From: Stentor roeselii
Taxonomy: Eukaryota > Ciliophora > Heterotrichea > Heterotrichida > Stentoridae
Length of the DNA stretch: 64,000 nucleotides
Assembly (NCBI GenBank): GCA_006503475.1
Contig: RSEH01000091.1
Span: 62,001 to 126,000 of the forward strand
Reading direction: 5' to 3'
A program made the translations under genes and the position numbers. The notes under the pieces were generated by a model, which saw only the letters and a program-made list of their open reading frames with translations, did no database searches and was not told where the DNA came from. Shown in pieces: positions 23,572-62,962 of this stretch. Positions within the stretch are counted from its first letter, which is position 1. Every line of letters begins with the position of its first letter.

Positions 23572-26500
23572 ATGTATCGATATTATATCAAAGACCACGG
23601 TCGAAGAAGAATAGTCGAGTACCCAGTAAAAGAAGCCACGCAACTAGCAGAGCTGATCGGTTTCGACTTTGAGCGAGAAACCCAATTCAGATGGTTTTTA
23701 AACCAAGCCCTAAACACATTGCTTCCGATAGGCTGGAAACGTGAAAGTGACCCTTTCGGCAACGTGCATTACCACAACGAAAAAACCCAAGTGACAACAA
23801 AAAACAACCCTTTAGTCTACAAGTTCCGCAAATGCTTCGAAAGACTTCTTCTCCGCGAGATGGAACAGCCTTCAGATGCAGAAAAACCTGGAGAAAGCAA
23901 ATCAGGAAAGTCCCAACTCATCGCGATTTCATCTCTCGAAGAACAAGAAGCAGTCTTTAAAAACTTGATGGAAAAAGGAGCTCATAACGAGCTTAACTTC
24001 AGTGAAAAGTTCTTAGAAATCATGAAAGAAGCTGAAGAGTTCTATGAAGCGATTTTCGTTGATGAAAGCTTCAAACCGCCGAAAAGCATCGCTGAAAGTA
24101 TTGAGTTTTTATTGGTCAACCCGGAAGAAATGGCAGATCTTGCCCGGGACTATAAGATAATCCTTGAGCCCCAGTTGATTTGGATCGCCAGGGCGGCTTT
24201 AGTCCTGCCTCTTCCGCCATTGTGGAGAAGTGAGATCAATGCATTAGGTGAGAAAGTTTACATCAATTCAGAGATCAACAATCCTCAGACAGAAGCTCCA
24301 TTTCACGCTTTTTTAAACAAATACATCCAGAAAGCACGTCTGGTTCTGCCCCAAGAAGGTGAAAAATTCATGACTTTCTACGATAAGGACTGCGTCAAGT
24401 ATGTAGTTGACTTGACAAAGCTTCCTACTAAAAGAGACTACAAAGTCCTTAAAGATGATAAACCTGATCCAGACTTGCTAAAAAAAGCTCTTTATTTTAA
24501 ACCGCAGCTTTCAAGTGAAGAGGCACTGACAGATGTCATGATCTTTGAAATTGCTCAGTCTGTCGGGATTGACATGAACCGAGAGCTTCATTTGATCTCG
24601 GCGGTTTACCAGATCATTGAGACTATCAAATCGAAAAACATTCTAAAGAACTGGGACTTCCGGATAACGATGGAAGGCACAAAGTACTGGTACAACACTA
24701 AAGACAAGAGGTCAATCCCTGACTTTCCTTATAAAGACGAAATCAAAAAGTACGTAAGAGTCGTTAGAAAAGAAGCTATTTCCAATGCCAAGACTTCAAT
24801 TAAAAAATTCTCTGAAAGACACCCTGAGTTCCAGGTCTACGGCAAAGAATTCTACGAAAGATGCAAAAAAGAAGCCATGGCTGTCACTGAGTCACTTGTC
24901 AAGAAGCATTTATCAGTAAGTTTCAAGTAGATCAATGAAAGTTTCTCTGCTTCTGGACTTGTCAAAGCGCATTTAAAACGTAAAGACAACCTTCAGGAGT
25001 ACCTTGACCTCGTCTTTGCCAATCCTTTCGATTTCGGAATTGATTCTGTAAAAGATAGTCTCGACCCAAGCCACATGAGCATCGACATGCCAGCAGAATT
25101 CAACGAAACTAAAAGATTACAAAAGATCACTGAGGACCAGGTCGAAACCCTCATAAAAGAAAAGGAAAAAGCAGTGAGTGAAGCTCGCAATGACTCCACC
25201 TTCGTGCGAAGCGATAGGGATCGAAGAAAGACGATTGTTGTGGAAAGCATTCCTTCTGAGTCTCCAACTAAACCCGACTTCAGAAGGTTCAAAACAATTG
25301 GACAGGAAGACGGCGGGGTCATCGCTGAAATCGACTCCAGTGAAGAGGACTCGAGAAGTGAACCACCCGCAGCTGAGGAAAGCGAAGACAATGAAGAATA
25401 CTTAGAACTGCAGCAGCTGGTTGAGGAAAAAATCGAACATCCTAAGGCAGCTTCAAAGCTTTCTTCAATCAGAATGGCGGTCAGTCGGAAAAACACCATT
25501 GAAAGCATTATTATCAAGGAAAGACGACAGAGCAATAATGACTTGCATCGTTCAAGTAGTGAACTCAGTGCTCTTCAAAGCGAAGACTCTCCTGATTACC
25601 GTGATATTCCTGCTAGAACCTTCGACAGAACTTCGAACTTCAAAGGAACCAGTCAAGATCTGCATAAATTCGAAGAAGAAAACAGAATTTACCAGGAATC
25701 TCAGGGAAAAGCCCATCAAGACTTCAAGTCAAAGCCAAGAAACCTGAAAAGAACATCAGAAAAAATCACATCTCCAAAAAGTCAAGACCTGCAAGAAGAT
25801 CATCTAAAACCCAGACATTCTGCTGATGTTTTTGAAAGACTCTCGCCTCGGACATCAAGAAAAAACGAGTTTCTTACTGAGCAGCTCAAAGCTCCAAGTC
25901 AAGCAAGGCAGGATTCAAATTCAATCGACCGTCTCAGCGACTCCATCAAATCTCCTGAAGCTTCATCTGAAGCAGAGCCTTTTCGAGAACTCGACCGAAA
26001 AGTGTCTTTGATCAGCGGATACGATGAAAATTTAAAACGTCCTGAAGAGCTGAAAAGAACTGACACTAAAAAATCTCCTCGATTTAAAGATGAAAGTCTT
26101 TCAGACCAAATGGATTTTTCTTCAATTGCCTCGAAAAGCGATCAACAAAGTTTGTTTGAAGACGACCTGGCAGAGATCGAAATCGACAAAAGACATGAAG
26201 AAAGATTCAAACTTGAATCAGAAAATTCTAGTGTTTCCAGATCTTTAAGGAAAAAAATCGTCAGTCAGAAAAGTTTGAAGTCAGTTATCATGTTTGAAGA
26301 CGATAAAATAAAAATCAACCCGAGACTTGCTGCTCCTGACCCTTTTGATGATTTTAAAGAAGTCACTCGGGGTACTGATGGGTTACCTGCCAGGAAAATC
26401 ACTCAGGCTGAGACTTTGAAAATGTCTGGTACGAGACATGAACTGCTTCGTAAGTCGACTAGTCCTGAAATGCTTAATAAGTTTGACTGGGTTGCTGCAA

Positions 26501-27924
26501 ACATGCATCGAGGCATTATTTATGAAACTGTCAAAACTGAACAAGCAGCATATATCAGGTCTTCTTCGAAATTGATTGAATCGTCTGATAAGATTGTTGT
26601 GAAATTGCCTAGCAAGAGGAATACAGTCACTGCCAGTCCTTTACCTGCACAGTCTGCTAGGTTGAACCCTCATGCAACCACTTTAAAGCACTTTCCCAGA
26701 GAAGACCTTAATTTAGATGATCAGGAAAAAATAAAAACTTTGAAGTACTTAGAAAGTAAAGCTGAACTCTCAGATTTAGAAGATAGTTCAGCTTTTCATG
26801 AGAAAAAAGATGGAAAAAAAGAAGAACCTGCTCCTGTTAGTAACGAGGTTTTACTTGAAAATCTAGAAACTCAGAAGAAAATTTTTGAAGAGGTTTTCAG
26901 TCCCTTATCGAAAAAACCTTTAAAATCCCCGATTTTACTTCCGAAGATCGTTAATCTCGATGTTTTCGGTGCACATATCATGAGAATTCCCAGACGCAAC
27001 AATGAACCCGAGCTAGTTTCTCCCAGACCTCGTCGCCTTGACCCTCTAGACGATAAAAAACCAATCAACCACTCACATCGCCCTGCAGAGATTGAGAAAA
27101 TCTTGCAAGTCTCTCCCGGACTTCACATCCAAAAAACTCAAATCTTAGAAAATTCTCAGTCCTTACCTGAAATCAAGCCAAAAATTAAGAAAAAACTAAA
27201 AGTCAATAAAGAGTCTCTCGCATTACAAGAAAAGTTGCTTTTTATGTACTACTTGGAACTCATCGGACACCCCAGCTGTTCCAGGTCTTCTCTCAATTTT
27301 TTCTATGTTGCCCGGCATGTGCAGCCAGTCGACGTCCTTAACATGGCGAAAAGACTTGGACTGAGAGTCTCGCCCAGTCCTTACTCGTCATTTGACAGTG
27401 ATTTGGTCTGGATCGCTTATCTTCAGATCGCGACTCCAATGCCTACTGGATTCAATTCACATACAAGGGTCTCTACTATGCTTACCTGGCCTTTAGGGAA
27501 ACATCCTGGAGATGTTTATTTCATACTTCTTGTCAAGTGTCAGAGAAGAAATCGCAATAATGAACTGAAAAAACTTGGAAAAATGCAAAAAGTTGAAAAT
27601 TTAATCTCTTTCTCTTGGTGCAGGTTTCTTAATGAAAAGAATAAAAACTTTTATTTTAATTTTTTAACTGGCGTGAGAAGTGAAGCTGCCCCGCAGATTA
27701 GTGAAAATTTTGATGTCGCGGTTGGGGTGAAGAAAAAGAATAGGTTGAAGGAGGTGTTAAGTCATGATCAAGATATTCAGGATATTATTTCGAAGTATGA
27801 TATTGAAAATAAGGGAAAGGATGAGAGGTTTTATAATTTGTCAAATTATATTATACAGACTTTGATTAGTAATGAAAGTCTCGATGAAGAATTAAAGTTT
27901 TCTGAAGGCTCTTCTGAGACTTGA
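23572..27924 (+). CDS. Protein with three CEP164-like helix+WW modules, large disordered middle
   Basis: A 1445-residue protein from exons 23572-24915 and 24931-27924. Three N-terminal modules each pair a short helical segment with a WW-type sheet: about 18-85 (FERETQFRWFLN... IGWKRESDPFGNVHYHNE), 180-245 (ILEPQLIWIARAALVLPLPP...) and 310-395 (MNRELHLISAVYQ... WDFRITMEGTKYWYNT). This resembles the single N-terminal module of CEP164, a distal-appendage protein needed for ciliary docking. Residues about 480-1190 are Ser/Lys/Glu-rich and disordered with many Ser-Pro sites. An ordered C-terminal domain (about 1200-1380) begins LLFMYYLELIGHPSCSR and is unfamiliar. A centriolar/ciliary role is inference. 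Confidence 0.82.
24916..24930 (+). other. 15-nt intron in the CEP164-like gene
   Basis: GTAAGTTTCAAGTAG, phase 0, ending in an in-frame TAG. Removing it joins the WW-module frame to the long downstream frame, which is open through 24931-25074 without needing a new start. Confidence 0.93.
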
Positions 27925-28143: not shown

Positions 28144-31100
28144 ATGCTGAACTTGATCTTACTTGCCAAAATGGTTTCGTCCGAATGCAACTGGGGTTAC
28201 TACGCTAACCCATCAGGATCAGACCCTGCATGCCTGAAATGCAATGAAGCCTGCGGAAACTGCAAAGGACCAACAGAGTTCGACTGCATTCAATGTAGCG
28301 GAACATATTCCAGCATAGAAGGCATCTGCATGGCGAACTGTCCGCTGGGCTTCCAAAAGCAAGGAGCGGGCTCATGCACCAGTTCATCGTCTGATGGAGT
28401 AGTCTATTCTCTTGATTTTACTAAAATTTCCAATAGTGTGGAAGATAAGGTCAACTTGAACTCTGCAAAAATTGTAGTATCAGCAGGGTCTACAGGAAGT
28501 TTTTATCCCTATTATGATGATTATGATCCATACACGATAAGGTATAGGGGGTTTTATTTTGACGGCTCGGCTTACTTAAAAAACGATGCGCTTGAAGTTA
28601 CCTTTGGACCTGTTTTTACCGTTGCCATGTGGATTCGGCCTATGAGTGGGAATGGATATTTGTTTGGTAAGCAAAATTCGAGCAATATTAATGTTGGGAT
28701 TAAAATTCAAAATTATTATCCGAATGTTCAGTTTTTTATGGGTAGTGTTCAGACTTATGGTGGAGCAAAAGCGCTCAGTAGTGGGAAGTGGGGGTTTTTA
28801 ATGGTTAAAATGTTATTAGATACTGGGTATAAAGCTAAAATTTCAATTACTGTTGATACAACTACTTCAACCTCTTCAACTTATTCGACATATTATAAAG
28901 ATATATATAGCGACTTTTATACCACTTATGGAGCCCAGTATTCTGGAGGCACTTTTTTAGACTACTTCAATGGATACATGTGGAGCTTCATGATAGGCAA
29001 TCAAGATATCGCTGCTTCAAATTTCATTCAGACATCCAGCTGCTCAGGAGGATGTTCAATCTGCCCGACAGAAAATTCAAATGCTTGCCTACCATCTTGC
29101 AGTTCAACTCAATACATCGAGAGTGGCGTATGCAAGGACTGCAGATCAAGCTGCCAAGTATTCGGCTGTGTGAGAGACGACAAATCATGTAATCTTTGCT
29201 ATGACCGTCTTTGTGCAAATTGCACAACCTTTGAAGAAGGCTGCACATATTGCATCAAAAACGCTTTTTTGAAGTCACCCACCGAGTGTGTGTGTAACAA
29301 TGGCTATATTTGGGATGAAGAGGAAGAAATATGCAAACCTTGCGTAAAGAAGTGTAAAACTTGCAACGGAGGAGGGTATCTGGGCTGTTCTGAGTGCGAA
29401 GACGGATATTATATGTTGTGGGGTATTTGTTACTCTATATGTCCTACAGGATACTCTGTTTCAGGAAAAACATGTGCCTTGACAGGTAGTAAAAGAATTC
29501 TTGATATGATTTTTAATAAGGTTCAAGGAGTAGTTTATGACTCAGTTAACTCAATTCCTGCTGTGACTGGATCCAGTTCAACTTTTTATCCAGATTATGA
29601 ATCGAATGACCCTATCGCTGCGTATTCTCGAGGGTATTACTTTAGAGGGAATTCTCTGATGAACTTTGCACCTTATAGCACTTATACCAGTCCTTATCTG
29701 ATTTTCAGTTCAGTGTTTTATGTGGGAATCTGGTTCAACCCTTCAGTAGATACTGGGATTTTGTATTCATCAGTGAATCCTGATTATAACGTCATTCTTC
29801 AGTATAGTATTCAGTCTTTGAGACCTCGGCTTGTGATTGGATTCTACAACCTGACTTCTGAGAGTTTCGATTATCCTTCAACCAGCTGCAAAAATTTAGC
29901 AACACTAAAAGCATGGAACTATATCTTATTCAAGTTAACTTTAAGTGATAAAGGGAAAACTTCGATTACTTGTTATATTAATAAAGTGGAAGAAACATCA
30001 CAAGAAGTTGGAAAAGGGTTTTTGTTTGATAGTACTAATCAGAATTATATGTTGGCAGGTACGCAGAAGACTAATGGAGGATATGACTCTGGTTATTATA
30101 AGGGGTTTATTTTTCATATTGTGGTTGATGTTGATATTGATTTTCCTAATAAGGAAATTTCTAGCGATTGCACTGGAGGATGCCCTTATTGTATAAGTGG
30201 AGGAGACTGTTTACCCGAGTGTAATATAAGTCATTACCAGTCCGGCTCTAAGTACAACGAATGCTCTGCTTGCGACGACAACTGCAAAGAAAAAGGCTGC
30301 CGAGACATTTCAGACACTTGCAACATCTGCGGAGATAAAGGATGCAAGGTATGTTATTCATACTCAGAAGAAGACTGCAGCGACTATTACTGCAAGAGCG
30401 GTCAATATTCTGATTCTGCGACTTCAGAGTGTAAAGATTGCGATGCATCATGTGGAAATTGCACAGCTGCAGGTCCAGCAAACTGCCGAAGCTGCACAAT
30501 TAATTTCTTACTCAACAAGGCCTGCCATTCATTTTGCCCCACAGGGTACTCAATCGATTCCAAAACATGCACTTTGACCTTGAGCCACATTTTAAGTTTA
30601 AACCTTCATCAAATCAAAGGAGTAGTACCTGACAGTCAAAGCAACTTCGAAGCTTTAGCTGGAAGTATTTCTAGTTTTTACCCGAATTTCGACTCTAGTG
30701 ACCCCTGGCCACAGATCTATCGAGGGTATTATTTTAATGGAGTGAGTTATTTACAGCTTCCTCCGAATGCGAATGACTCAAGTTTGATCACTTTTGGAAA
30801 TGCTTGGGTTGTCACTTTTTGGATCAGGGCTGAAAGTGATGGGACTGTTTTTGTTAAACAAAAATCGGATTATGGGTACTGCTTGAGAGCGATTTTAACT
30901 GGAAATAAAGTAAAAGTTGAACTGCAATTGAATAATCTTGCTGTTGTTACCACTGATAAGTCTCTAGGGAATATCTGGAATTATGTTATTATTAGAGTCA
31001 GGTTTGAAAACACAGGAGATTCTTCTGTTCAAGTGATAATCAATGGAGAATCACAGATGTTTGATGCAGGTTCAGGTGCTTATGCTGACTTAAAATCCAG

Positions 31101-34100
31101 CTTTACAATGACAATAGGAGCCCAGAAGTCTAGCGACGGGTATTCAAGTAACTTCACCGGTTTTTTATACTCTTTCGATATCTACTCGACCTACGCAACT
31201 ATCTCAGACTACTCCTCAACATGTGACACAAGCGACTTTACATGCACAGTTTGTCCTTCAGCAACTTCATCTTGTATCGATCTCTGCAATTATAACTACT
31301 GGTACAACGGAAACAATTGCCAAAAATGCCAGGACTCGTCTTACAATTCATGCAGAAGGAATGATAAAAGTTGCAATCTATGCAAAGACGTTCAATGCAA
31401 GATTTGTGATACTTTTGATTCAGGTAGCTGTAGTGAATGTCGTCCTCATGCAGTTCTATCATCTGGAGAATGTGATTGTGATGATGAGTATGTTTGGAGT
31501 AACTCCGAGGAAGCCTGCATTGTTTGTGACACGAGCAAGAAGGTAAAGTTGCAAGGAGTTTGTCTTGATTTCTGCCCGACTGGCTATACTGCTTCAAATG
31601 GAAAGTGCACTGGGGACCCGGCAAAGATCTTTAATATTGAAATGGACAAGAATATACTTGGAACAGTTCCTGATACTGTTAATGGGCAGATCTCGGTTTT
31701 GACTGGGCCGACTAGTGAATTTTATCCTTATTATGATGAAGAAGACCCTTATGCAGGGAAGGATCGAGGGTATTATTATAACGGGTACTCGTCTTATACT
31801 CAATTCGTGACCAGTTCTGATAACAATAAACAACTTGTGCTCAGTCCTGAGTTCTCTATTTCCTTCTGGATTTATCCTGTTTCTTCTGGAGTGATCTTCA
31901 CGAAACAAACTGGATACTCGACAAATATAAAAATAGAAATACTTGATTCTCAAAAAGTTAAAGTTTCTGCATTGCTCTCCACCCAGGCCTCCCTCAGCTC
32001 AATGACCAGCAACATGAAAGTAAACTATGGTGACTGGAATTTCGTAGGAGTGACTTGCAAACTATCAGATGACATTTCAACCCAAATCACAATCCAAATA
32101 AACAACACGAAACATGACCAATCATTAGGCACAGGTGCATACATCGACCCTTCAAGTTCTTATTCAGCTTTCTTAGGAGCTGAGTTGAACTCTTCGAACC
32201 TCCTAACAAACTACTACACAGGCTACATCAACTCAATGACAGTCTGGAATTCAGGACAAGACCTTTCCTCTCAAGTCTCAACATCATGCACAGGAAACTG
32301 CGCTTTCTGTCCTTTAACAGGAAAATGTTTACCCGACTGTGGACTTTTTTTCTATTTTGACTCGACATGCAAATCTTGCAACTCTTTCTGCAAACAAGGC
32401 TGCGTGAGAAACGAAGACTGTAACCTTTGCTATGACCGTCTATGTGAGGTGTGCTCGAATTACACTTCAACCGGCTGCAGTAAATGTGTTGATGGAGCTG
32501 AAAAGGTCTCAGGTACCTGTCAATGCAAGACAGGCTCAACGAAAACAAAGCAAAACGGGAACTTGTACTGCGCGACTGATTGTCAAAGCGAGTGCGAATC
32601 TTGCTACAGCTCTTTTCAAGGTGAATGTATAAGCTGTAAAGACGGGTACTTTTTAGACGTGTATGGCCTCTGTGTCAGTCAATGTCCCACAGGGTCAAGT
32701 TTGCAGGGCAAGAAATGCGTTCAAAACAGCGGAAAAGTGAAAATTTTACATTATGTGTTTAATACTACTGTCAATAGTCCTGAGGACAAGACAGCGAAAC
32801 TGAAAGCTTTCATGGGTTCAACTAGTCAGTACATAGGAAACTACGATGAAAATGACCCGATAGCTTATTACAAAAGAGGAATTTATTTCAATGGACAACA
32901 GAAATACGTTCAACTCCCGCCTAACCCTGCAGAGTCCTCTTATGTTATTCTTGGAAATCTTCACTCTATCAAGTTCTGGCTCAGGGCAAAATCTTCTTCG
33001 TCTTCTGGTACCTTAGCAGTAAAGGAGTCCTCAAGTGGCGCAGTGGTCCATCTTTACCTGGACAACATGATTCCTAAAGTTTCTTACAAACTTCGAGATA
33101 TTTACTCAACTAATGAAAAAACTCTCTCCGCTCAAGCTTCTGCCTTGACAGCTGGGGTCTGGTACGAGTTGGTCTTTGTTTTGAAAAGATCAGGCAGGTC
33201 AACCACTGGCATTTTCTTCGTGAATGGGAAACGAGGGCAGAAGTCCTACACGACGAAGTCATTTTTATATGAAACTAAAGACTTAGAGTTCAAGTTGGGG
33301 TACTCTGAAAGTCAATCTTCTTCTTATACCGGGTTTATTTATGAGTTCATTATTTTTAACTATGAACTCTCTCCGAATGACCCCAGCTCGAATCCTTGTT
33401 GGTGCAGTCTATGCACTGCAGAAGGGGACTGCCTGGTAGACTGTGAAACCAACCAGTACATCAAAGACCACGATACCTGCTCTAATTGTCCTAGTGAGTG
33501 TCCTTCAGGATGCAGGAGTGAATCCAATTGCGGACAGAATGAAGACGGGTACTGCGAAGAATACTTCGGGTTCGAAATGAAACAATGCACAAAATGCAAA
33601 AAACTCGCGAAATTCACGTCTTCAGGGTGTAAATGCGTTGAAAACTCAAGTTTAATCAACGGACTCTGCACATGCAACCAGGATTATGAAGAAGTTGACA
33701 ACGTCTGCGAGGCTTGTTTTTACCATCTTCAGTCCTCTGAAGTTGAAGGGTACTTCTCAGAGGACTACCTTTCACTCATCTTCAACTTAACCCAGGCGGT
33801 GCGGTCTTCTTCTTCAAGTGACTGTTCAAAGTTATTCACTCCAGAAACCTTCAGTCTTTTCGGAGATTCTCCAAAATGCAGCTGGTTAAAAAGTTTCACA
33901 ATGCTCAAGGTGTTACTAGGCTTCGACGCTCAAGTTGTAAACGAAACTGAGATCTGGTTCGCTAAGAATTCTTTACTGACAAGTATCAAAACATGTGGAA
34001 GCTTCCGAGGGCCGATAAGTGAAAAGGTTTATTTCAAATATGACATTCCTCAGATAATTCCTACAGCTTTCATCGACGCTCCTCCGAAGTACTCAGTTAA

Positions 34101-37100
34101 TTGTGGAGATATGGTGGTCAGCGGGACCAAATCGAGTGGAGGGCATGGAAGACGATTGAAGTTTGAATGGCAGTTCGTTTCTAAGCCAGAAGATGACGTG
34201 TTCAATATCTCTGATATGACTCAGAGCAGTTACTTGTTCCGCAATCACACAGTTAGTCCTGGAAAGTTAACGGCTTCGCTTGAAGTGAAGAACTGGCTGG
34301 GATTTTCAGATGATGCTCAGCAGGTTGTTGTTCTTACAACCGACATCGTGATTGAGTTGATTGTTGATAGCGATATTTCATTTGAAATGACCACACAAAT
34401 GTCAAAGTCCATCTTCGTCAAAGCATTCAGTCCTTGTGGAATTTCTAATGACCTGACCTTCTCTTGGAGTCTTTTGGATAAGGAAGGAAAAGATGCAAGG
34501 GTTGATCAGCAACTTTTGTGGGGGTCGCAAAAGTCTCAGAGTAAACTTTATATACCTAAAGGAGCTCTTGGACCTGGAAGGTACTTTTTTAAAGTTGCGG
34601 CTCATGATAATGAACTGGGAAGTGACGGAGAAACTGTTTTAGTTTTGAATGTGGTTTATAGTGACTTGCAAATTCTCTTCAACCCTGAGTATAAAACAGT
34701 TAATAGACTCAAGGATTTGACCCTTGACGGAAGTGTCGCTTTCGATCCTGATCAAACCACAGATCCTGAAAATTTCTTGTGGAATTGCTCTGATAACTGT
34801 GATGCTCTTATTGAAAAAAGCGATAAACAAGTCACTTTTATTAAAAAAGAAAACCTAGAAAATCTAAAAGAATATCAATTTACTCTCACTTATACAAAAG
34901 GATCTCGAAGTGCTTCTGCAATTCTAACAGTTCAGGTAAACGATTCCAGTAAAATCTCAGTGAAATTCACCCGGGTACCTGAGTACATAAACAACCAAGA
35001 AAACTTCATAATAATCTCATCGCTCGACCCTCCCTGCAACTGTTCTTATTTCTGGGAGGTGTTATCCGGTGGTAAATACGAGTTAAACACCGAAGCCACA
35101 GGTAAAGACGTTGGTTTCGCCCCTTACTCAATGTCAGTGGGTTCCAAATACAAAGTCCAGTTGACAGTCTGGGACTCCGACGGGAGCGAGTCACGTTTTC
35201 AGCAGAACTTCAAAGTAAACGTGCCACCGAAAGGAGGTTCATTAAAAATCAGTAAATCCTCAGGAGTCGAATTGGACACCCTGTTCAAACTTCAAGCGAC
35301 AGGCTGGTCTGATTTCGAGAACTCTTCATGGCCGCTGACATATCAATTCGGGTACTACAAAGAAAACACAGCATACTACGTGAACGTCAGAAATGAGTCT
35401 AACTTCTTTTTCACCCAACTCCCAACAGGGACTCCTCTTGAAGTCTTTGTCAGGGTTTACGACATTCATGGATCATTCAGTGAAAAAACCATCGACGTCC
35501 AGGTAGCCTCTTCGAATATCTTCGCGGAGGACCTGATGCAAGAATTTGAAAACTTTTTAAATTCCAATAAGCTCGACGCTGAAACACTTGTCGGGTACTT
35601 GACGAACCTTGCCTGGGCTTTTCGAACACATGAGTTTAACGAGAGTTATCAAGACCAGGCCTTCAACCTGAGCCTTCTGTCCATTGAAGAGTTGAAAGGA
35701 ACGATGCAAGACATTGACTTCAGCAAGATAGACGTTTTGTTTTCCTTGACGGCAGTTGTGACTCTTTACGACCTTGACTTCGAGAAGCGACTATCGCTGT
35801 ACCAGCTGCTGAGTAGTTACACCCAGTTGATTTCAGATGAAGTCGTGATCATGTCGACAGCGCGAGCAGACCGTTTTGTTGATATTTTGTTGAAACTTGT
35901 TGAGTTCACTCCAACGACAGTGGTCGACTCTGCGGAGGACTTGTACCAAGCGAACGAAATTTTGAAAGCCTTGGCAATGGCGAGTTCTGTTTCAATGGCG
36001 CAGACCCAGTGGATGGTTTTCGGCAAGAGTCCAATTGAGTGTTATGTGAAACTTTATAAAGGAGATGATATTCCCAGCTTTCGAACACCTGACAAGCTGA
36101 ACTCAACACTAATCGCACTACCTGTGGACCCGAGTCTAATGTTTTTGTCAAGTTCAACAATTATGACAGTTTTGAATGTTTATAACTGGGACCCTGAACT
36201 TTATCTTAACAATAGTGAAGAACATTCCGCAGCAGTTGAGTTTACTTTGATTGAAATCGTCAACTTCACACAAACTATTTTAGACATTCAGCTGGAAGAT
36301 GGCTTTATCAACGTTAGCGTCCCTATTTGGAATGTTGATAAGTTCCCTCCTAAATGTGTTTATTGGAGAACTGACGACTGGTCACGAAAAGGATGCAAAC
36401 TTGCTGAATTTGAAGGAAATCGCAGTATTTGCTCTTGTTCTCATACTTCTTTGTATACCAGTGGGTCGCACTTTGGAACGGATTCTGATGGAGACGATGA
36501 CGGAGGACCTATCCTTATCTACCTTGTCTGTCTCGTCGCTTTGCTTTGGATCTTCTTGGCCTGCTGTCTCGTCGTCAAGGACAGGAAAGAGTCGGAGAGT
36601 AAAGTCTTTGTCGCGAAAATCATCGCAGCTCTTCCTCCTGCAGGTAAAAAAACTCCAGGGTATATCGAAAACCAAGTCGCTGATCAACTAGGACGTGGTG
36701 AAAAAGATGAAAAAAAAGGCACTCTTCATGTACCTCCTGCAAAATTCGCTGTTGTTGGGGGAGAGGTGAAAGAATATGAAAGTCAAAAGGCCCTTGGGTA
36801 CTCTGAAATCGAGGAACCTAAAAGTGAAGATGTTGTAAAAGGACGTAAATTGACTCTTCCTCTTGGGTATCAGATCTTGCCTGGAGCTGAGTTCTCTAAA
36901 AACCCTGCTGAAAGACCTGAAAGACCTGAAAAAGTTGAAAAAGTTGAAAAATATGAGAAAGTTGAAAAAAATGAAAACAATGAACGTGTCAAAATGCAAA
37001 TCATGCCGATGAATGTCTCTTCTAAGTCTGATCTTCCTGAATCTGAAAAAGCTGCTGGCTTCGCTTTTAAGGCTCAAGCATTTCAGGTCTCTGAATTCCC

Positions 37101-39222
37101 TAACACTGAACAAAATGTGAGATTTACTGGAAAAGATGTGGAAAAAGCGCCCACTGGACCTGGTTTCGCAGGTTATCCAAAATCGGATCCTACTAGTGGA
37201 ACTTCTTCGAATATTGGAAGACGCGATTCGAAGGATGGAAGGGGACCGCAAGTTGCTGTTGTTCCTTTAAATCAAGATGAAAAGAGCGGGTTTAGTTATT
37301 CTCAATCTGGAGACGGTTTTGTAATGCAAAAATTTGCTCAATTTGAAGAGTTTCGTTCTGAACAAGGAGGATCTGCTAAAGGAAACCTGCCGAGAGGGTC
37401 TCAACATGAAATCCCTTCAGTTCAAATGGCAAGACTAGGAGGAGTAACAAACCTCGAATCAGGAAAAGATTCCAGATCCGAAACCCGTAACATAAGCTAC
37501 GCGGTTCCATCAAGAGATCTACGTCTAACAGAATACGAGCCAAGGCCAGGTACCGACGGTAAATATTTACTCCAAAACCTTTCAGGAGTATCACCAAGAA
37601 ACGAAGGAGTCCGAAAAGAAATAGTACCAGAGCTAAGCCAAGACGAAAGCCCGAGACTTCCTGATCAAGTAAGACACGTTGAATACATCTCAGGTCCCAA
37701 GCTTCCCGGTTTGACCGAACTAAACATGGAAAATTCCGAAGGCTTCCAAAGACCAGGGCCTTCAGGAAATAACCCAGGACTGCGCCTGGGAGGCTTCACT
37801 GAAATGAACATGGAATCTCCTGAAGGCTTCCAAAGGGCTCCTGGAAACTCTGCATACAACCCTGCACCTCGCCTCGGAGGACTCACTGAAATGAACCTGG
37901 AAAGTTTTGAAGCGTCTCAAAGGGCGCATCCTGCGCCAGGACAAGGCAACTTTTCTTACAACCCTGCTCCTCGCCTTGCTGGACTCACTGAGATGAAGTT
38001 TGAAAACTCTGAAGGCTTTCAAAGACCTCCTGGACCAGGACAAGGGAACTTTGCTTATAACCCCGCTCCTCGCCTTGCAGGATTGACCGAAATGAATTTG
38101 GACGATAGTTCACAGCATCCGGGTAAACTTTCAGAGCACGGTCAGAGGATTCCAGCGCAAAGTGACGTGAACTACGAAGCTGGTAAAGGAACTCAGGCTT
38201 TTTACTCTTCGAATTATCGTCTCGCAGCTCCAACTGACTTAAAAATCATTGAAAGTCAAAATTTCGCAACTACTGGAAAGTCAGGCCAGGGAGATCCAGG
38301 GAAAGAATCTTTAGAAAGTCCGAACTTTGGCTCAGAAAAGAAACCTTTTTTGTTCAATGCTGAAAAAGAGTCTAATGTTTATGAAAGTTCAGCGAAAGGC
38401 TCGAAAATTTCAGGGTATAAATTGGAAAAAAGAACAAATGATAGAAATCCAACACAAGCTTATGAAGAAAATGTTGGTAAAGGGAAAATTGCTGAACTTG
38501 AAGAAGCTAAACAGGAGAATCCTGAAGGTAGGAACTTGAAAAGACCTGCGGAATCTGACAAGTTTCCAGAGAATACAGAACTTTTCACTCAGCCTGATAG
38601 TCCTAACAATAGAAATCTTAGGAGAAAGAAAGGAGTTGAGCAAGAAGTTCCTATGTTTGAGGAAAATGAGGAAATTCGATATCCTGGATTTATTGCTGAT
38701 TATTTCTTCTCTGCTGTTTTTTATTATCATGAAAACTATTCAAGGTTTTCTAGATGTGCTCAGGGTGTCTGCTCGTTTTTGCTTCAAACTATTCTGATTG
38801 GAGTCATTTTGTCCGGAATGGGGAACTCTTATGCTGAGGATAAGGGAAGAAGTTTTGGGACACTTTTGGGAAATTTAATGTTTCAAGATGTTGCTGTTGC
38901 ATTTTCTATGGTTATTGTTAGCAATTTGTTACTTGGAGCTTTGCTTTGTTTGTTCTTTAGGAGACCTCCTGTGGTGTCTGGGTCTGAGGAGGTTAGGGGT
39001 TCAAGGAAGAAGGAATTTTTTGGACTTTTTATCATGCTTTTGATTATTTTTGGAACTGTAATTGCAGTGGCGTTACTAGAAATGTCAATGGATCATATGT
39101 TTTCAGTTCTTTGGGTGATCTGCTTATTTATCGGTTTCCTATTTGATTTCTTCTGCATCCAGTTGATCAAAGTATTAGTTTTCAATTATTTTTCACCAGG
39201 CCTTATCTTACCAGTTAGTTAA
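28144..39222 (+). CDS. Giant polycystin-1-like membrane protein (Cys-rich/LamG x5, REJ/PKD, GPS, 5 TM)
   Basis: A 3692-residue single-exon protein. A short signal peptide (MLNLILLAKMVSS) is followed by five repeats of a furin-like Cys-rich block plus a LamG/ConA-type sandwich, starting near residues 14, 300, 676, 1027 and 1382. Each LamG carries an FYPxY-DP-RGYYFNG-like signature. A last Cys-rich block ends near 1857. REJ/PKD-like beta domains follow (about 1980-2700), then a GPS region near 2738-2775 (CVYWRTDDWSRKGC, then CSCSHTSLYTSG) and one membrane helix (about 2788-2812). A ~730-residue disordered cytoplasmic loop with tandem repeats leads to four C-terminal helices (3541-3681). The end (SVLWVICLFIGFLF...LIKVLVF) resembles the TM2-TM5 region of polycystin-1. 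No PLAT domain or polycystin-2-like channel is seen. Adhesion or mechanosensing is inference. Confidence 0.88.
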   Translation: MLNLILLAKMVSSECNWGYYANPSGSDPACLKCNEACGNCKGPTEFDCIQCSGTYSSIEGICMANCPLGFQKQGAGSCTSSSSDGVVYSLDFTKISNSVEDKVNLNSAKIVVSAGSTGSFYPYYDDYDPYTIRYRGFYFDGSAYLKNDALEVTFGPVFTVAMWIRPMSGNGYLFGKQNSSNINVGIKIQNYYPNVQFFMGSVQTYGGAKALSSGKWGFLMVKMLLDTGYKAKISITVDTTTSTSSTYSTYYKDIYSDFYTTYGAQYSGGTFLDYFNGYMWSFMIGNQDIAASNFIQTSSCSGGCSICPTENSNACLPSCSSTQYIESGVCKDCRSSCQVFGCVRDDKSCNLCYDRLCANCTTFEEGCTYCIKNAFLKSPTECVCNNGYIWDEEEEICKPCVKKCKTCNGGGYLGCSECEDGYYMLWGICYSICPTGYSVSGKTCALTGSKRILDMIFNKVQGVVYDSVNSIPAVTGSSSTFYPDYESNDPIAAYSRGYYFRGNSLMNFAPYSTYTSPYLIFSSVFYVGIWFNPSVDTGILYSSVNPDYNVILQYSIQSLRPRLVIGFYNLTSESFDYPSTSCKNLATLKAWNYILFKLTLSDKGKTSITCYINKVEETSQEVGKGFLFDSTNQNYMLAGTQKTNGGYDSGYYKGFIFHIVVDVDIDFPNKEISSDCTGGCPYCISGGDCLPECNISHYQSGSKYNECSACDDNCKEKGCRDISDTCNICGDKGCKVCYSYSEEDCSDYYCKSGQYSDSATSECKDCDASCGNCTAAGPANCRSCTINFLLNKACHSFCPTGYSIDSKTCTLTLSHILSLNLHQIKGVVPDSQSNFEALAGSISSFYPNFDSSDPWPQIYRGYYFNGVSYLQLPPNANDSSLITFGNAWVVTFWIRAESDGTVFVKQKSDYGYCLRAILTGNKVKVELQLNNLAVVTTDKSLGNIWNYVIIRVRFENTGDSSVQVIINGESQMFDAGSGAYADLKSSFTMTIGAQKSSDGYSSNFTGFLYSFDIYSTYATISDYSSTCDTSDFTCTVCPSATSSCIDLCNYNYWYNGNNCQKCQDSSYNSCRRNDKSCNLCKDVQCKICDTFDSGSCSECRPHAVLSSGECDCDDEYVWSNSEEACIVCDTSKKVKLQGVCLDFCPTGYTASNGKCTGDPAKIFNIEMDKNILGTVPDTVNGQISVLTGPTSEFYPYYDEEDPYAGKDRGYYYNGYSSYTQFVTSSDNNKQLVLSPEFSISFWIYPVSSGVIFTKQTGYSTNIKIEILDSQKVKVSALLSTQASLSSMTSNMKVNYGDWNFVGVTCKLSDDISTQITIQINNTKHDQSLGTGAYIDPSSSYSAFLGAELNSSNLLTNYYTGYINSMTVWNSGQDLSSQVSTSCTGNCAFCPLTGKCLPDCGLFFYFDSTCKSCNSFCKQGCVRNEDCNLCYDRLCEVCSNYTSTGCSKCVDGAEKVSGTCQCKTGSTKTKQNGNLYCATDCQSECESCYSSFQGECISCKDGYFLDVYGLCVSQCPTGSSLQGKKCVQNSGKVKILHYVFNTTVNSPEDKTAKLKAFMGSTSQYIGNYDENDPIAYYKRGIYFNGQQKYVQLPPNPAESSYVILGNLHSIKFWLRAKSSSSSGTLAVKESSSGAVVHLYLDNMIPKVSYKLRDIYSTNEKTLSAQASALTAGVWYELVFVLKRSGRSTTGIFFVNGKRGQKSYTTKSFLYETKDLEFKLGYSESQSSSYTGFIYEFIIFNYELSPNDPSSNPCWCSLCTAEGDCLVDCETNQYIKDHDTCSNCPSECPSGCRSESNCGQNEDGYCEEYFGFEMKQCTKCKKLAKFTSSGCKCVENSSLINGLCTCNQDYEEVDNVCEACFYHLQSSEVEGYFSEDYLSLIFNLTQAVRSSSSSDCSKLFTPETFSLFGDSPKCSWLKSFTMLKVLLGFDAQVVNETEIWFAKNSLLTSIKTCGSFRGPISEKVYFKYDIPQIIPTAFIDAPPKYSVNCGDMVVSGTKSSGGHGRRLKFEWQFVSKPEDDVFNISDMTQSSYLFRNHTVSPGKLTASLEVKNWLGFSDDAQQVVVLTTDIVIELIVDSDISFEMTTQMSKSIFVKAFSPCGISNDLTFSWSLLDKEGKDARVDQQLLWGSQKSQSKLYIPKGALGPGRYFFKVAAHDNELGSDGETVLVLNVVYSDLQILFNPEYKTVNRLKDLTLDGSVAFDPDQTTDPENFLWNCSDNCDALIEKSDKQVTFIKKENLENLKEYQFTLTYTKGSRSASAILTVQVNDSSKISVKFTRVPEYINNQENFIIISSLDPPCNCSYFWEVLSGGKYELNTEATGKDVGFAPYSMSVGSKYKVQLTVWDSDGSESRFQQNFKVNVPPKGGSLKISKSSGVELDTLFKLQATGWSDFENSSWPLTYQFGYYKENTAYYVNVRNESNFFFTQLPTGTPLEVFVRVYDIHGSFSEKTIDVQVASSNIFAEDLMQEFENFLNSNKLDAETLVGYLTNLAWAFRTHEFNESYQDQAFNLSLLSIEELKGTMQDIDFSKIDVLFSLTAVVTLYDLDFEKRLSLYQLLSSYTQLISDEVVIMSTARADRFVDILLKLVEFTPTTVVDSAEDLYQANEILKALAMASSVSMAQTQWMVFGKSPIECYVKLYKGDDIPSFRTPDKLNSTLIALPVDPSLMFLSSSTIMTVLNVYNWDPELYLNNSEEHSAAVEFTLIEIVNFTQTILDIQLEDGFINVSVPIWNVDKFPPKCVYWRTDDWSRKGCKLAEFEGNRSICSCSHTSLYTSGSHFGTDSDGDDDGGPILIYLVCLVALLWIFLACCLVVKDRKESESKVFVAKIIAALPPAGKKTPGYIENQVADQLGRGEKDEKKGTLHVPPAKFAVVGGEVKEYESQKALGYSEIEEPKSEDVVKGRKLTLPLGYQILPGAEFSKNPAERPERPEKVEKVEKYEKVEKNENNERVKMQIMPMNVSSKSDLPESEKAAGFAFKAQAFQVSEFPNTEQNVRFTGKDVEKAPTGPGFAGYPKSDPTSGTSSNIGRRDSKDGRGPQVAVVPLNQDEKSGFSYSQSGDGFVMQKFAQFEEFRSEQGGSAKGNLPRGSQHEIPSVQMARLGGVTNLESGKDSRSETRNISYAVPSRDLRLTEYEPRPGTDGKYLLQNLSGVSPRNEGVRKEIVPELSQDESPRLPDQVRHVEYISGPKLPGLTELNMENSEGFQRPGPSGNNPGLRLGGFTEMNMESPEGFQRAPGNSAYNPAPRLGGLTEMNLESFEASQRAHPAPGQGNFSYNPAPRLAGLTEMKFENSEGFQRPPGPGQGNFAYNPAPRLAGLTEMNLDDSSQHPGKLSEHGQRIPAQSDVNYEAGKGTQAFYSSNYRLAAPTDLKIIESQNFATTGKSGQGDPGKESLESPNFGSEKKPFLFNAEKESNVYESSAKGSKISGYKLEKRTNDRNPTQAYEENVGKGKIAELEEAKQENPEGRNLKRPAESDKFPENTELFTQPDSPNNRNLRRKKGVEQEVPMFEENEEIRYPGFIADYFFSAVFYYHENYSRFSRCAQGVCSFLLQTILIGVILSGMGNSYAEDKGRSFGTLLGNLMFQDVAVAFSMVIVSNLLLGALLCLFFRRPPVVSGSEEVRGSRKKEFFGLFIMLLIIFGTVIAVALLEMSMDHMFSVLWVICLFIGFLFDFFCIQLIKVLVFNYFSPGLILPVS
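37702..38100 (+). repeat. In-frame tandem repeat coding for ~28-34 residue units
   Basis: Inside the cytoplasmic loop of the polycystin-like protein, about 4.3 units follow the pattern L(P/G/A)GLTEMN-(L/M)E-SEGFQR-P-GQGN-YNPAPR. Units differ at the DNA level and vary in length (28, 29, 34, 33 residues). Weaker copies flank the array, for example RLGGVTNLES near 37430 and YRLAAPTDLKIIES near 38220. The unit is Pro/Gly/Asn-rich and probably unstructured, so it may be a repeated binding site. Confidence 0.9.
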
Positions 39223-39559
39223 TTTAGTAGAAATTAAAATAATGAAATCGTTTCTTAAAACCTAGCCTTTATAGTTTCCTTCACACTTTCATCATTTCCA
39301 TTCCATTTAATTGAAATTCTTTCCTTCCACTCAAGTATTTAATTCAGCTTAATATTTATTTAAGGGTCTAAATACCTTTGAGAGAATCATAAGCATACCT
39401 TCCAAATTTTCACTATTATTCTTTGTCTAAAAGGGGAAAAACAGAATTTGGACAAAGTTTTAAAAACTCTATTGAAACTGAACTTTCAGAATTCAAAAAG
39501 AAAAAAGATAAAAAGAAAGCATTAAAGAAATAATCAAAGAGTAGTGAATACAATAAGTT
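39223..39559. other. Intergenic region after the giant gene, 337 bp
   Basis: A/T-rich sequence between the stop of the polycystin-like gene and the recognisable part of its decayed copy. The right part, from about 39440, is A/G-rich and could be a more eroded continuation of that copy, but I cannot align it convincingly. No gene is visible. Confidence 0.5.
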
Positions 39560-40168
39560 AACATCAAATACAGAAATTTTCACTACCAGAGAGTATCTAT
39601 CCAAAAAATCAAATTCAAAAAGGAGTTAGTAAAAAAGGTGGATTAATAAAAGAGTTGAAATTTTACATATCCTAAATTAATGACAGATTATTGTTCCTCA
39701 ACTGTTTTTAATTATCATAAAATTATTCAAGGTTCTAAGGTATCTGTTAAATTTTAATTGAAGCTTATCTTATTTGATTGAGTGTGTTTTCAACCAGGAG
39801 CCCTAACTTGAAAGAATAAGGAAGTAGATATAGAACACTTTGGGAAATTGATGATTCGAGATCAGTTATTTCTTTTATATTACTTTTTTCAAACTTTGCA
39901 CTTTGGAGGACTATTGTTTGCTATTTAGAAGATTATTTATTATGCCAGGATCTGAAGAGATTGAAATATAAAGAAGAATTAACTTTATATCCCAAATAAA
40001 CACTTCACCTCTTCTACATTTCTAGAAATTTCAAATGGCTTCCTTTAATAATCCCTCAATTTGATTCCCTATCCACCAATTTCAATTCATTTTCTATCCA
40101 AACAATAATAGTTTAATCAAAATACCTTTAAACTAATCCTTCCAATTATTTAATTTATTAGAAATTAA
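39560..40168 (+). pseudogene. Decayed tandem copy of the 3' end of the polycystin-like gene
   Basis: The sequence aligns by eye with the last ~650 bp of the gene at 28144-39222. Examples: AATACAGAAATTTTCACT against AATACAGAACTTTTCACT; ATTCAAGGTTCTAAGG against ATTCAAGGTTTTCTAG; TTTGGGAAATTGATG against TTTGGGAAATTTAATG; CTTTGCACTTTGGAGGAC in the third-helix region; and TAATTTATTAGAAATTAAGT against TAATTTAGTAGAAATTAAAA at the stop region. Stops occur in every frame and there are insertions and deletions, so it cannot encode the four C-terminal helices. It ends exactly at the convergent gene whose stop codon (40165-40167) lies inside the homologous segment. This implies a local duplication followed by decay. 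Confidence 0.8.
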
Positions 40169-41121
40169 GTATCATCAGACCCATTTTCCTTCAAACTCTG
40201 ACTTTTTTCCCTAAACCCCAACATAGGAGTGAACCGATGTTTCGGAGTTTCAGCAGCTTTCCTGGAAAGACTAGTCGAGCTCTGAGGTCTAGAGGCCGTA
40301 GGAGTAGAGCTAATCCGTCCAGAGTCAATAGTTTCCTTAACATTTTCATAAGCCTGTTCAATTCTCTGCTTCTGATTCACAATATTTTGCGTTAAATTCT
40401 GACTTTGAATAAAAATCCTTTTCAAAGCTTCATCATTGACTTCTTTTCCTGCGAACTTCACCGAGAAATTCCTGACAGTTCCAGTCATCCCTGCCTTCTC
40501 CTGCTGAATTTTATTTAAAGTGTCTAAAGAAAACTGCAAAAGGCCAACAGTGAATCCAGCCAAGTCTTCACAAGAGGCCTTTGCCATGAAATGGTCTTCA
40601 TTGGTGAAGACATTTTGAAAGATATTGAAAATTTCTTGATTTTCCTTAACAGCCGACATGAAAAACTTTGAATATCGAGCTAAAGTCACCTGCTCCTCAG
40701 AGATCGGTCGAGTGTCTCTGTAAGCTGAAAGACTTTCATGCAATTTCCTGTTTTCAGTTTCAAGTTCTTTTCTAAATAAGTCTTACTTTTCCATCTCAAG
40801 GATCCGAACTTCACGTTTTAAGCGAAGAATCTCTGAAGATTTTTCTGGAACTTCATTTGAAGGAAGTCTTTCAGGTTTACTTTGAATTCCTTTCAACTTG
40901 TCTGATGTTTTTTGAAGCAGGTCTTTGAGTTTGGTGACTGACGTTAAGGTCTTAGACGACGAGCAGACTGAGAGCTTTGGTGTTGAGCATTCAGGTTGAA
41001 CTTCACTTGAAAAGGAAGCTTCTACCAGTTTATCAGTTCTGGAAGAAGGCCGCTCGGAACTAGGCCGCTCATTGATGTGAAGATTGATGGGAAGTCTGAG
41101 ATTTAAACGATGAGAGGCCAT
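40165..41121 (-). CDS. Coiled-coil protein, Ser/Pro-rich C-terminus (313 aa)
   Basis: Two exons, 41121-40787 and 40771-40165, give 313 residues. The N-terminal third is basic and Ser-rich (SSERPSSRTDK). A coiled coil runs from about 75 to 250 through the splice junction (LRLKREVRILEMEK joined to KELETENRKLHESLSAY). The C-terminus is Ser/Thr/Pro-rich (SSTPTASRPQSSTSLSRK) and probably disordered. A cytoskeletal role is likely from composition only. The stop codon lies inside the segment homologous to the end of the polycystin-like gene. The ATG lies 41 bp from the stop of the Kelch/EGF gene upstream on the same strand. Confidence 0.85.
40772..40786 (-). other. 15-nt intron in the 313-residue coiled-coil gene
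   Basis: GTAAGACTTATTTAG, phase 2; retention makes an in-frame TAA. Splicing joins two frames into one uninterrupted coiled coil. Confidence 0.95.
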
Positions 41122-62376: not shown

Positions 62377-62398
62377 ATTATAAAAGACTTCACTTGTA
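62377..62398. promoter_or_regulatory. 22-bp bidirectional promoter/5' UTR region
   Basis: Only 22 bp lie between the divergent start codons of the kinesin (62376) and the LITAF gene (62399). It contains a TATAAAA word on the + strand. There is no room for two conventional 5' UTRs plus promoters, so elements must overlap or extend into the coding regions. Confidence 0.6.
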
Positions 62399-62962
62399 AT
62401 GGAAACAACGAAAAAAACTGAAGTGAACTTCATACAACTGCCGAATACGGAAGAGTCGATTATTAGAGGGTCTTTAGAACAAAGTGAAAGCCCGGTTTCT
62501 AAGAGAAGGATTTTCACGGATTTTCCGACTGAGGAAACTTTGAACCTTAGGTCGTTGAATTCACCTCATACGGCTTCGTCGATACGGGAAACGTTTTTTG
62601 ATAAGATTAAAGACGTGGTGATGGGAAGTAAGGTTGGTGAAACTTTGAGACTTACACAAACCGTTAGTGATAGCAAAGATGATCCTCCTGTGGTCAGTGA
62701 AAACCGAGTTATTGAGGCTTTTGAGCCTCATGAAATGATGATCGGGCAGGAGGTACCTACTCTAATCTGGTGCGCTTTTTGCAAAGGTGAAAGAAAGACT
62801 GAACTTGACTATGTCAACAGTTCAAAAACCTTCTGGGCTTCTGTTGGGATCTTCTTGGCAGGAGGGGTCGCTGGGTGTTGTCTAGCACCCTATTGTATTA
62901 ATAAATGCAAGGCCACTCGACTTACATGCTCAAGATGTGGACATATTGTTATGAGTGACTAG
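62399..62962 (+). CDS. LITAF-domain membrane-associated zinc protein
   Basis: A 187-residue protein. The C-terminal ~75 residues form a LITAF (SIMPLE-like) domain: WCAFCKGERKTELDYV (first CxxC), a hydrophobic membrane-inserting stretch (TFWASVGIFLAGGVAGCCLA), PYCINKCKATRLTCSRCG (second zinc half) and the end HIVMSD. Known LITAF proteins sit on the cytosolic face of late endosomes/lysosomes with a hairpin-like insertion. The N-terminal ~110 residues are polar and Ser/Thr-rich, probably disordered. It is divergent from the kinesin gene with a 22-bp spacer and followed 27 bp later by the phosphodiesterase gene. Confidence 0.88.
   Translation: METTKKTEVNFIQLPNTEESIIRGSLEQSESPVSKRRIFTDFPTEETLNLRSLNSPHTASSIRETFFDKIKDVVMGSKVGETLRLTQTVSDSKDDPPVVSENRVIEAFEPHEMMIGQEVPTLIWCAFCKGERKTELDYVNSSKTFWASVGIFLAGGVAGCCLAPYCINKCKATRLTCSRCGHIVMSD

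Follow-up and report, generated by a model that had tools for sequence, protein, structure and literature searches.

A probable giant REJ–GPS receptor of the ciliate Stentor roeselii with a polycystin-1-like domain order and no channel match

What kind of protein is made from an 11-kb ciliate gene that recalls the receptor portion of polycystin-1 (PC1) and stops where the channel portion would begin? The gene lies at 28144-39222 (+) of a 64,000-nucleotide stretch of Stentor roeselii DNA (assembly GCA_006503475.1, contig RSEH01000091.1, positions 62,001 to 126,000), here called the window, to which all coordinates refer. Its product is probably a plasma-membrane adhesion or recognition receptor of the REJ–GPS (PKD1-related) type, in which a PC1-like ectodomain is joined to a unit of five transmembrane (TM) helices corresponding to TM1-TM5, without the channel. 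A first-pass annotation, made from the DNA letters, had described a PC1-like giant protein at this place and suggested a surface mechanosensor or adhesion receptor; what it observed is confirmed overall and its interpretation is partly supported.

Architecture of the receptor

The frame runs from ATG to TAA over 3,692 codons with no interruption, exactly as first described; at the frame's own base composition, the probability that so many codons would be free of stops by chance is about 10^-104. Coding in the window follows the standard code. Stentor introns have been published as 15-16 nt long, 90.9% of them being 15-nt introns with a branch-point A at position 10 (PMC9505925; this and the other PMC sources are cited from excerpts). 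Since a 15-nt intron keeps the frame, the open reading frame (ORF) was checked for hidden introns. The scan, of GTA starts, gave 13 GTA..AG 15/16-mers on the ORF strand (seven plus six). All 13 failed an AT-rich filter (G+C up to 27%), which candidates in other parts of the window do pass. A hidden in-frame intron of this type was rejected on that ground, though five of the 13 have A at position 10/11 in our own reading of the scan. Elsewhere in the window, candidate 15-nt GTA...TAG introns with A at position 10 are seen at 1353 (+) and at 57498, 57403, 45769 and 40786 (-).

The features of the gene are as follows (coordinates, strand, identity and, in brackets, basis).

28144..39222 (+), whole gene, 3,692-residue protein, apparently a single exon (ORF, intron check, stop statistics)
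28144..28185 (+), putative short signal peptide, residues 1-14 (sequence reading alone)
28183..28380 (+), Cys-rich segment 1, residues 14-79, furin-like, sub-threshold (Pfam fragments, pair test)
28381..29061 (+), LamG module 1, residues 80-306, Pfam below cut-off (Pfam fragments, module comparison)
29062..29475 (+), Cys-rich segment 2, residues 307-444, 24 Cys (pair test)
29476..30174 (+), LamG module 2, residues 445-677 (likeness to sister modules)
30175..30570 (+), Cys-rich segment 3, residues 678-809 (pair test)
30571..31236 (+), LamG module 3, residues 810-1031 (likeness to sister modules)
31237..31605 (+), Cys-rich segment 4, residues 1032-1154 (pair test)
31606..32319 (+), LamG module 4, residues 1155-1392 (Pfam fragments, module comparison)
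32320..32715 (+), Cys-rich segment 5, residues 1393-1524 (pair test)
32716..33387 (+), LamG module 5, residues 1525-1748, best Pfam match E 2.7e-12 (Pfam fragments, module comparison)
33388..33948 (+), Cys-rich segment 6, residues 1749-1935 (pair test)
34432..35568 (+), REJ domain with PKD-like repeats, residues 2097-2475 (Pfam)
35569..36348 (+), putative GAIN helical part, residues 2476-2735, helices of low confidence (AlphaFold, predicted local distance difference test score, pLDDT, 39)
36349..36450 (+), GPS motif, residues 2736-2769, His-Thr-Ser at the cleavage triad (Pfam fragment, latrophilin-3 alignment)
36496..36588 (+), TM1, residues 2785-2815 (hydropathy, AlphaFold)
36589..38673 (+), polar, Cys-free, presumed cytosolic loop, residues 2816-3510 (fragments, composition)
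37708..38102 (+), 34-residue repeats in the loop, RLxGxTEM, four motif copies (repeat search)
38740..38823 (+), TM2-like helix, residues 3533-3560, start SRF[ST]R...C (hydropathy, PC1 alignment)
38863..38964 (+), TM3-like helix, residues 3574-3607 (hydropathy, PC1 alignment)
39007..39096 (+), TM4-like helix, residues 3622-3651 (hydropathy, PC1 alignment)
39094..39192 (+), TM5-like helix, residues 3651-3683, SVxW...FLxxF...KVL...YFS (hydropathy, PC1 alignment)

A Pfam search of the whole protein matched REJ (PF02010) at residues 2097-2475 with E 7e-37 and a K319L-like PKD repeat with E 1.8e-7, so that the REJ and PKD-like repeats read earlier from the letters hold good. An NCBIfam match of the REJ–GPS fragment to a myxosortase-dependent M36 family (37.4 bits against a cut-off of 1500) was set aside and taken as PKD-type repeats. 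GPS (PF01825) was not matched in the whole-protein search and was found in a fragment search, at E 4.2e-8 and 34.0 bits against a cut-off of 22.5. In the PDB, the GPS segment matched latrophilin-3 at E 0.28 and one unrelated chain at E 0.26, and the Cys/Trp framework is preserved in the alignment with latrophilin-3. The usual form of the cleavage triad is His-Leu-Thr/Ser; it is His-Thr-Ser here and His-Leu-Thr in latrophilin-3. Because the Leu at P-1 is replaced by Thr and the His and a hydroxyl residue are kept, self-cleavage is possible and not safe to assume. The GPS motif of the first-pass annotation thus stands by its Pfam match and departs from the usual form in its triad. Two details of this region sit poorly with a PC1-like receptor: the REJ span holds five Cys, whereas REJ is reported to have six that are conserved (PMC1934368), and with Thr at P-1 cleavage at the GPS may be weak or absent. 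The structure prediction proposed as a check on a GAIN fold was made for residues 2420-2820 (AlphaFold, single-sequence), and with a mean pLDDT of 39, which is low confidence, it speaks neither for nor against the fold. A GAIN domain has reportedly been found in Tetrahymena.

Hydropathy gives five TM helices, one at residues 2785-2815 and four within 3538-3683, the one-plus-four arrangement previously noted. The loop between TM1 and the last four helices is 695 residues long, has no Cys and a mean hydropathy of -0.99, and contains the 34-residue repeats (period 102 bp, 78% matches); in its residues 2820-3520 no family of Pfam, PLAT included, is matched at E 5 or below, in keeping with the proposal that a long repeat-bearing loop replaces PLAT. 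PLAT and PKD_channel had no matches in the whole protein up to E 1 or in 10 fragments up to E 5, limits within which the HMMER filters nevertheless discard most matches above about 0.1, and Polycystin_dom was not matched in the whole protein or the fragments either. The claim that PLAT and channel parts are missing is therefore upheld at the level of Pfam. The protein ends nine residues past its last hydrophobic segment, with no C-terminal coiled-coil tail, and the end of the frame at 39222 is the point at which PC1 continues from TM5 to TM6.

The ectodomain comprises 2,784 residues, with five LamG-type domains alternating with six Cys-rich segments. Laminin_G_3 was matched in four stretches of the whole protein (E 9.5e-29); among the modules searched as single fragments, 4 and 5 were recognised by Pfam, 1 fell below the cut-off and 2 and 3 were not recognised. 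The five are nonetheless mutually homologous, all 10 pairs having z values of 16.2-33.5 with 0/300 shuffles as high, and they have in common the positions DP...RG.Y, a W and a G. The only PDB chain found up to E 1 with a profile of the five modules was the adhesion G-protein-coupled receptor (GPCR) CELSR1, at E 0.066. For the Cys-rich segments, z is at least 5 in 13 of the 15 pairs, the failing ones being segment 1 with 4 and segment 1 with 6; Furin-like_2 reached 17.7 bits on a Cys-rich segment, below its cut-off of 28. The first-pass count of five Cys-rich/LamG modules was therefore right for LamG and one short for the Cys-rich segments. To our knowledge, and within the open-access literature searched, this set of ectodomain domains is not known from animals.

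In the favoured reading, five LamG lectin-like domains would be displayed on Cys-rich spacers, followed by the REJ region and the GPS. The LamG array may bind a glycan or protein on a neighbouring cell, prey or substrate, and the GPS could cleave itself, the two halves remaining together. Ligand, contact with a neighbouring cell or shear on the array would then act through REJ/GPS on TM1 and through TM1 on the five-helix unit, the putative counterpart of the TM1-TM5 peripheral complex that, in the human complex, is distinguished from the TM6-TM11 core (PMC7728438). Since the protein has no pore, its output would have to pass through the 695-residue, presumably cytosolic loop or, by contact, to a polycystin-2-like channel that is a protein of its own. 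Human PC1 provides a precedent, in that its N-terminal fragments, in soluble form, can activate PC-1/PC-2 complexes externally (PMC7728438), which makes action in trans plausible. Mechanosensing would be one option for such a receptor beside recognition, mating and adhesion.

A serious rival shares this anatomy and assigns it another role than mechanosensing, that of a mating-type or cell-pairing recognition receptor like MTA, MTB and MRC1 of Tetrahymena. In these proteins a Cys-rich GFR domain goes with five TM helices (PMC10901506, PMC3608545); the Stentor protein likewise has five TM helices, together with Cys-rich, weakly furin-like segments, and REJ plus GPS proteins are known from gametes, on sea urchin sperm and in Ectocarpus male gametes (PMC1934368, PMC4700764). 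However, the excerpts of the MTA/MTB accounts do not mention REJ, GPS or LamG (the word ‘laminin’ occurs 0 times in PMC10901506 and PMC3608545), and the gene is not part of a head-to-head pair, as the upstream ORF at 25075-27924 is on the same strand. A mating or pairing role is a real possibility, if still an unlikely one, and the broader assignment to PKD1-related adhesion or recognition receptors is preferred.

Likeness of the last four helices to TM2-TM5

The five-helix unit depends on the relationship of the last four helices to PC1. Residues 3498-3692 were compared with TM2-TM5 of human PC1, using the letters of 6a70_B, and gave a local score of 82 when the long TM3-TM4 loop of PC1 was removed. 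This score was reached by 0/2,000 hydropathy-class shuffles (maximum 68), 0/2,000 local shuffles (maximum 74) and none of 116 decoy windows (maximum 59), which were taken from 39 E. coli membrane frames from all four E. coli stretches; with three gap costs, the count was 0/1,000 in each case. At TM2 the residues identical to PC1 include SRF.R and C..LL, at TM5 they include SV.W...FL..F...KVL...YFS, and TM2 and TM5 alone are unusual when taken singly (14 and 12 of 2,000 shuffles, respectively). The control comparison with TM6-TM11 of PC1 scored 36, which is chance level (296/1,000, or 310/1,000 with the TOP domain cut), and the possibility that the C-terminus is a homologue of that part of PC1 was accordingly discarded.

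A number of results pull the other way. The first loop cut, with its score of 82, was a favourable one, since twelve alternative cuts scored 56-77; with these, decoys reached the score in two cuts (2/116 and 4/116) and shuffles in three (1/500 each). Retaining the TM3-TM4 loop of PC1 lowered the score to 52, a value reached by 5/116 decoys, and reversed sequences scored 55. Singly, TM3 and TM4 are at chance (1,017 and 910 of 2,000 shuffles), and the best placement of TM4 differs from the fourth helix. BLASTP of the C-terminus against PC1 TM2-TM5 gave E 0.50 and phmmer against the PDB found no match up to E 10. The single-sequence AlphaFold model of residues 3490-3692 has a mean pLDDT of 52, again low confidence, and its best Foldseek match has E 1.7; the model itself neither favours nor refutes a TM1-TM5 fold.

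The alternative cuts mostly speak for the likeness all the same. In ten of the twelve no decoy reached the score (0/116) and in nine no shuffle did (0/500); as most alternative cuts thus beat decoys and shuffles, the verdict is independent of the first, favourable one. Other results are neutral. Pfam has no match, at E 5 or below, for TM2-TM5 of PC1 either, and so the lack of a Pfam match for the Stentor C-terminus is no evidence against the likeness. A joint profile of the C-terminus and PC1 finds PC1 chains only, which is expected because PC1 is part of the profile. The C-terminus also drew a SpoIIE_N match of 16.3 bits, below the cut-off of 27, which was dismissed as generic hydrophobic likeness.

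Taken as a whole, these comparisons provide moderate support for a resemblance, at the level of sequence, between the last four helices and TM2-TM5 of PC1 in order. The likeness that the first-pass annotation had drawn thus survives, as a likeness in sequence, against shuffles, decoys and the TM6-TM11 control.

A rival reading takes the four helices to be a ciliate membrane anchor without relation to PC1, domain shuffling having given the two proteins REJ–GPS alone in common. The near-threshold similarity with the loop retained and in two of the twelve other cuts, the chance-level scores of TM3 and TM4 singly and the low confidence of the structural model are all compatible with such an anchor. 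It does not readily explain why four helices are matched in order, with signatures at TM2 and TM5 and a score found in 0/2,000 shuffles and 0/116 decoys, nor why the helices follow REJ, GPS, TM1 and a loop as they do in PC1 while the TM6-11 control stays at chance. An unrelated anchor is therefore considered improbable, more so than a mating role, and a PC1-like TM1-TM5 unit is retained.

The decayed copy and the end of the gene

The end of the frame is itself informative, because a second version of it is found just downstream.

39502..40168 (+), decayed tandem copy of the gene's 3' end, non-coding, 5' border uncertain (aligned with 38501-39237)

In its first alignment the copy scores 283; among 200 Markov shuffles the highest score is 100. 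Its gaps break the frame in 58 of 65 cases (not multiples of three), its three frames hold 15, 12 and 19 stops, its mismatches are dispersed across the codon positions (58/202, 45/209 and 53/205) and its GC content of 0.264 is close to that of the spacer (0.273) rather than of the intact end (0.369); these features together identify it as an old, neutrally decayed duplicate. The 5' border is uncertain because the alignment query began there, and an upstream extension scored no better than chance (91, null 96). On its 3' side the copy borders directly on the stop of a minus-strand ORF that converges on it, 40743..40165.

A TAA in the copy is aligned opposite the stop of the receptor gene. The stop region itself (39180-39260 against 40101-40200) scores 55, a value that 0/1,000 shuffles and 0/1,248 other stretches of the window reach, whilst a longer alignment of the 3' flank was no better than chance (82, null 90). 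Since the old copy has the same stop, the channel-less end did not arise by recent truncation; the stop just after TM5, where the channel domain would start, is as the first-pass annotation placed it and is common to both versions. The copy has decayed and the frame of the intact C-terminus has remained open, which fits selection on the channel-less form.

These observations bear on whether the gene is a former 11-TM PC1 channel subunit that is broken at its 3' end, whether because a nonsense mutation arose recently, because the assembly is wrong or because an intron is hidden there. The frame does stop at the TM5-to-TM6 point of PC1, as a broken subunit would. However, the ORF list of the window has no closed plus-strand ORF of at least 150 residues starting between 39222 and 48458, and the decayed copy has its stop at the same place together with some of the same 3' flank. 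A downstream channel exon was rejected for the same reasons, and a broken subunit is very improbable. Least likely of all is an adhesion-GPCR-like receptor, with a GPS and a helical bundle coupled to G proteins, as could be read from latrophilin-3 among the PDB matches of the GPS (E 0.28) and from CELSR1 with the LamG profile (E 0.066), since the helices are one plus four, 695 residues apart, not seven contiguous ones, and no fragment has a seven-helix (7-TM) Pfam match.

Other genes of the window include, at 43346-41163 (-), ORFs for a Kelch/attractin-type propeller and for teneurin-type EGF, of which the teneurin-type one has a hydrophobic C-terminus; they are probably parts of one further large surface or glycosylphosphatidylinositol-anchored protein, convergent to the REJ gene. 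A single ORF at 13232-15598 (+) links TPR repeats with a cyclic-nucleotide-binding domain, and an ORF at 60256-62517 (-) encodes a kinesin motor (E 2.1e-112).

Relation to known receptors

The features that set this protein apart from PC1 may also say something about how PC1 was assembled. As a tentative and, in our estimation, unlikely extension of the favoured reading, ciliates could possess a free-standing PC1 ‘receptor half’ that gates a separate polycystin-2 in trans, the channel half having been fused to it later in another line, or shed in ciliates. If so, this would be a natural two-component polycystin. A channel-free ciliate protein that unites REJ and GPS with a unit resembling TM1-TM5 would mean that the sensing half of PC1 is separable from its channel half, and that their union is perhaps younger than the sensing half. 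The function of TM1-TM5 on its own, which is hard to isolate within an 11-TM subunit, would also become testable. Stentor is amenable to RNA interference and electrophysiology.

Ciliate REJ/GPS proteins are present in Pfam/UniProt. Among the matches listed in open-access PubMed Central (title and start of abstract) there was no report of a ciliate REJ/GPS protein, though the gene may have been described in print or annotated in a database before. The scanned viral contigs and prokaryote genomes hold no relatives of the REJ–GPS region, the C-terminus or the LamG modules, and searches of the receptor in NCBIfam and PHROGs gave nothing usable. PKD1 homologues are described as typically absent from non-animals (PMC10846610) and Paramecium as having none (PMC6627415). 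Separate membrane proteins that partner PKD2 are known in protists, but they are small: Chlamydomonas SIP has one TM helix and 361 residues (PMC10846610), and Paramecium XntA is called PKD1-like in one source (PMC8964087) and, in another, a small protein with no relation to the partners known for PKD2 (PMC8535419).

MTA, MTB and MRC1 of Tetrahymena are, like the Stentor protein, large ciliate surface proteins with five TM helices, and their Cys-rich furin-like domain has a possible counterpart in the Cys-rich segments here, where the Furin-like_2 match is sub-threshold; they have a mating-type-specific ectodomain and, in the excerpts of their descriptions, no mention of REJ, GPS or LamG (PMC3608545, PMC10901506). 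Esi0130_0068 of Ectocarpus is another non-animal REJ plus GPS protein with several TM helices; it differs in its length of 1,427 residues, its 6-7 TM helices, its reported polycystin-channel match and, as excerpted, its lack of a lectin domain before REJ (PMC4700764).

In the wide sense of a REJ–GPS receptor (REJ, GPS and at least one TM helix), the Stentor protein has every part. The CELSR adhesion GPCRs have LamG modules too, with a GPS ahead of the first helix; unlike them, the Stentor protein has REJ and no 7-TM domain.

Receptors of the REJ family without a channel are already known from the sea urchin. SpREJ1, 2, 7, 8 and 9 combine a REJ plus GPS ectodomain with a reduced number of TM helices (1, 2 or 6), as is the case here; by TM number, the ten SpREJ proteins divide into three with one helix, four with eleven and single cases with two, six and none (PMC1934368). 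REJ, GPS and PLAT are named as their common set, yet PLAT is present in five of the ten. Their other modules are C-type lectin, EGF, PKD or WSC, and the excerpted account describes no five-TM form and no Cys-rich/LamG array (PMC1934368).

The closest comparison is with human polycystin-1 (PKD1; PDB 6A70), with which the Stentor protein has in common a REJ domain, a GPS directly before TM1, a long stretch and then TM2-TM5-like helices in order. The domains of PC1 include LRR, WSC, C-type lectin, PLAT and the channel, and none of these is matched by Pfam in the Stentor protein; it also has no TOP domain, TM6-TM11 or tail, with five TM helices in place of 11. What it has instead are five LamG domains on Cys-rich spacers outside the membrane and, where PLAT sits in PC1, the 695-residue polar loop.

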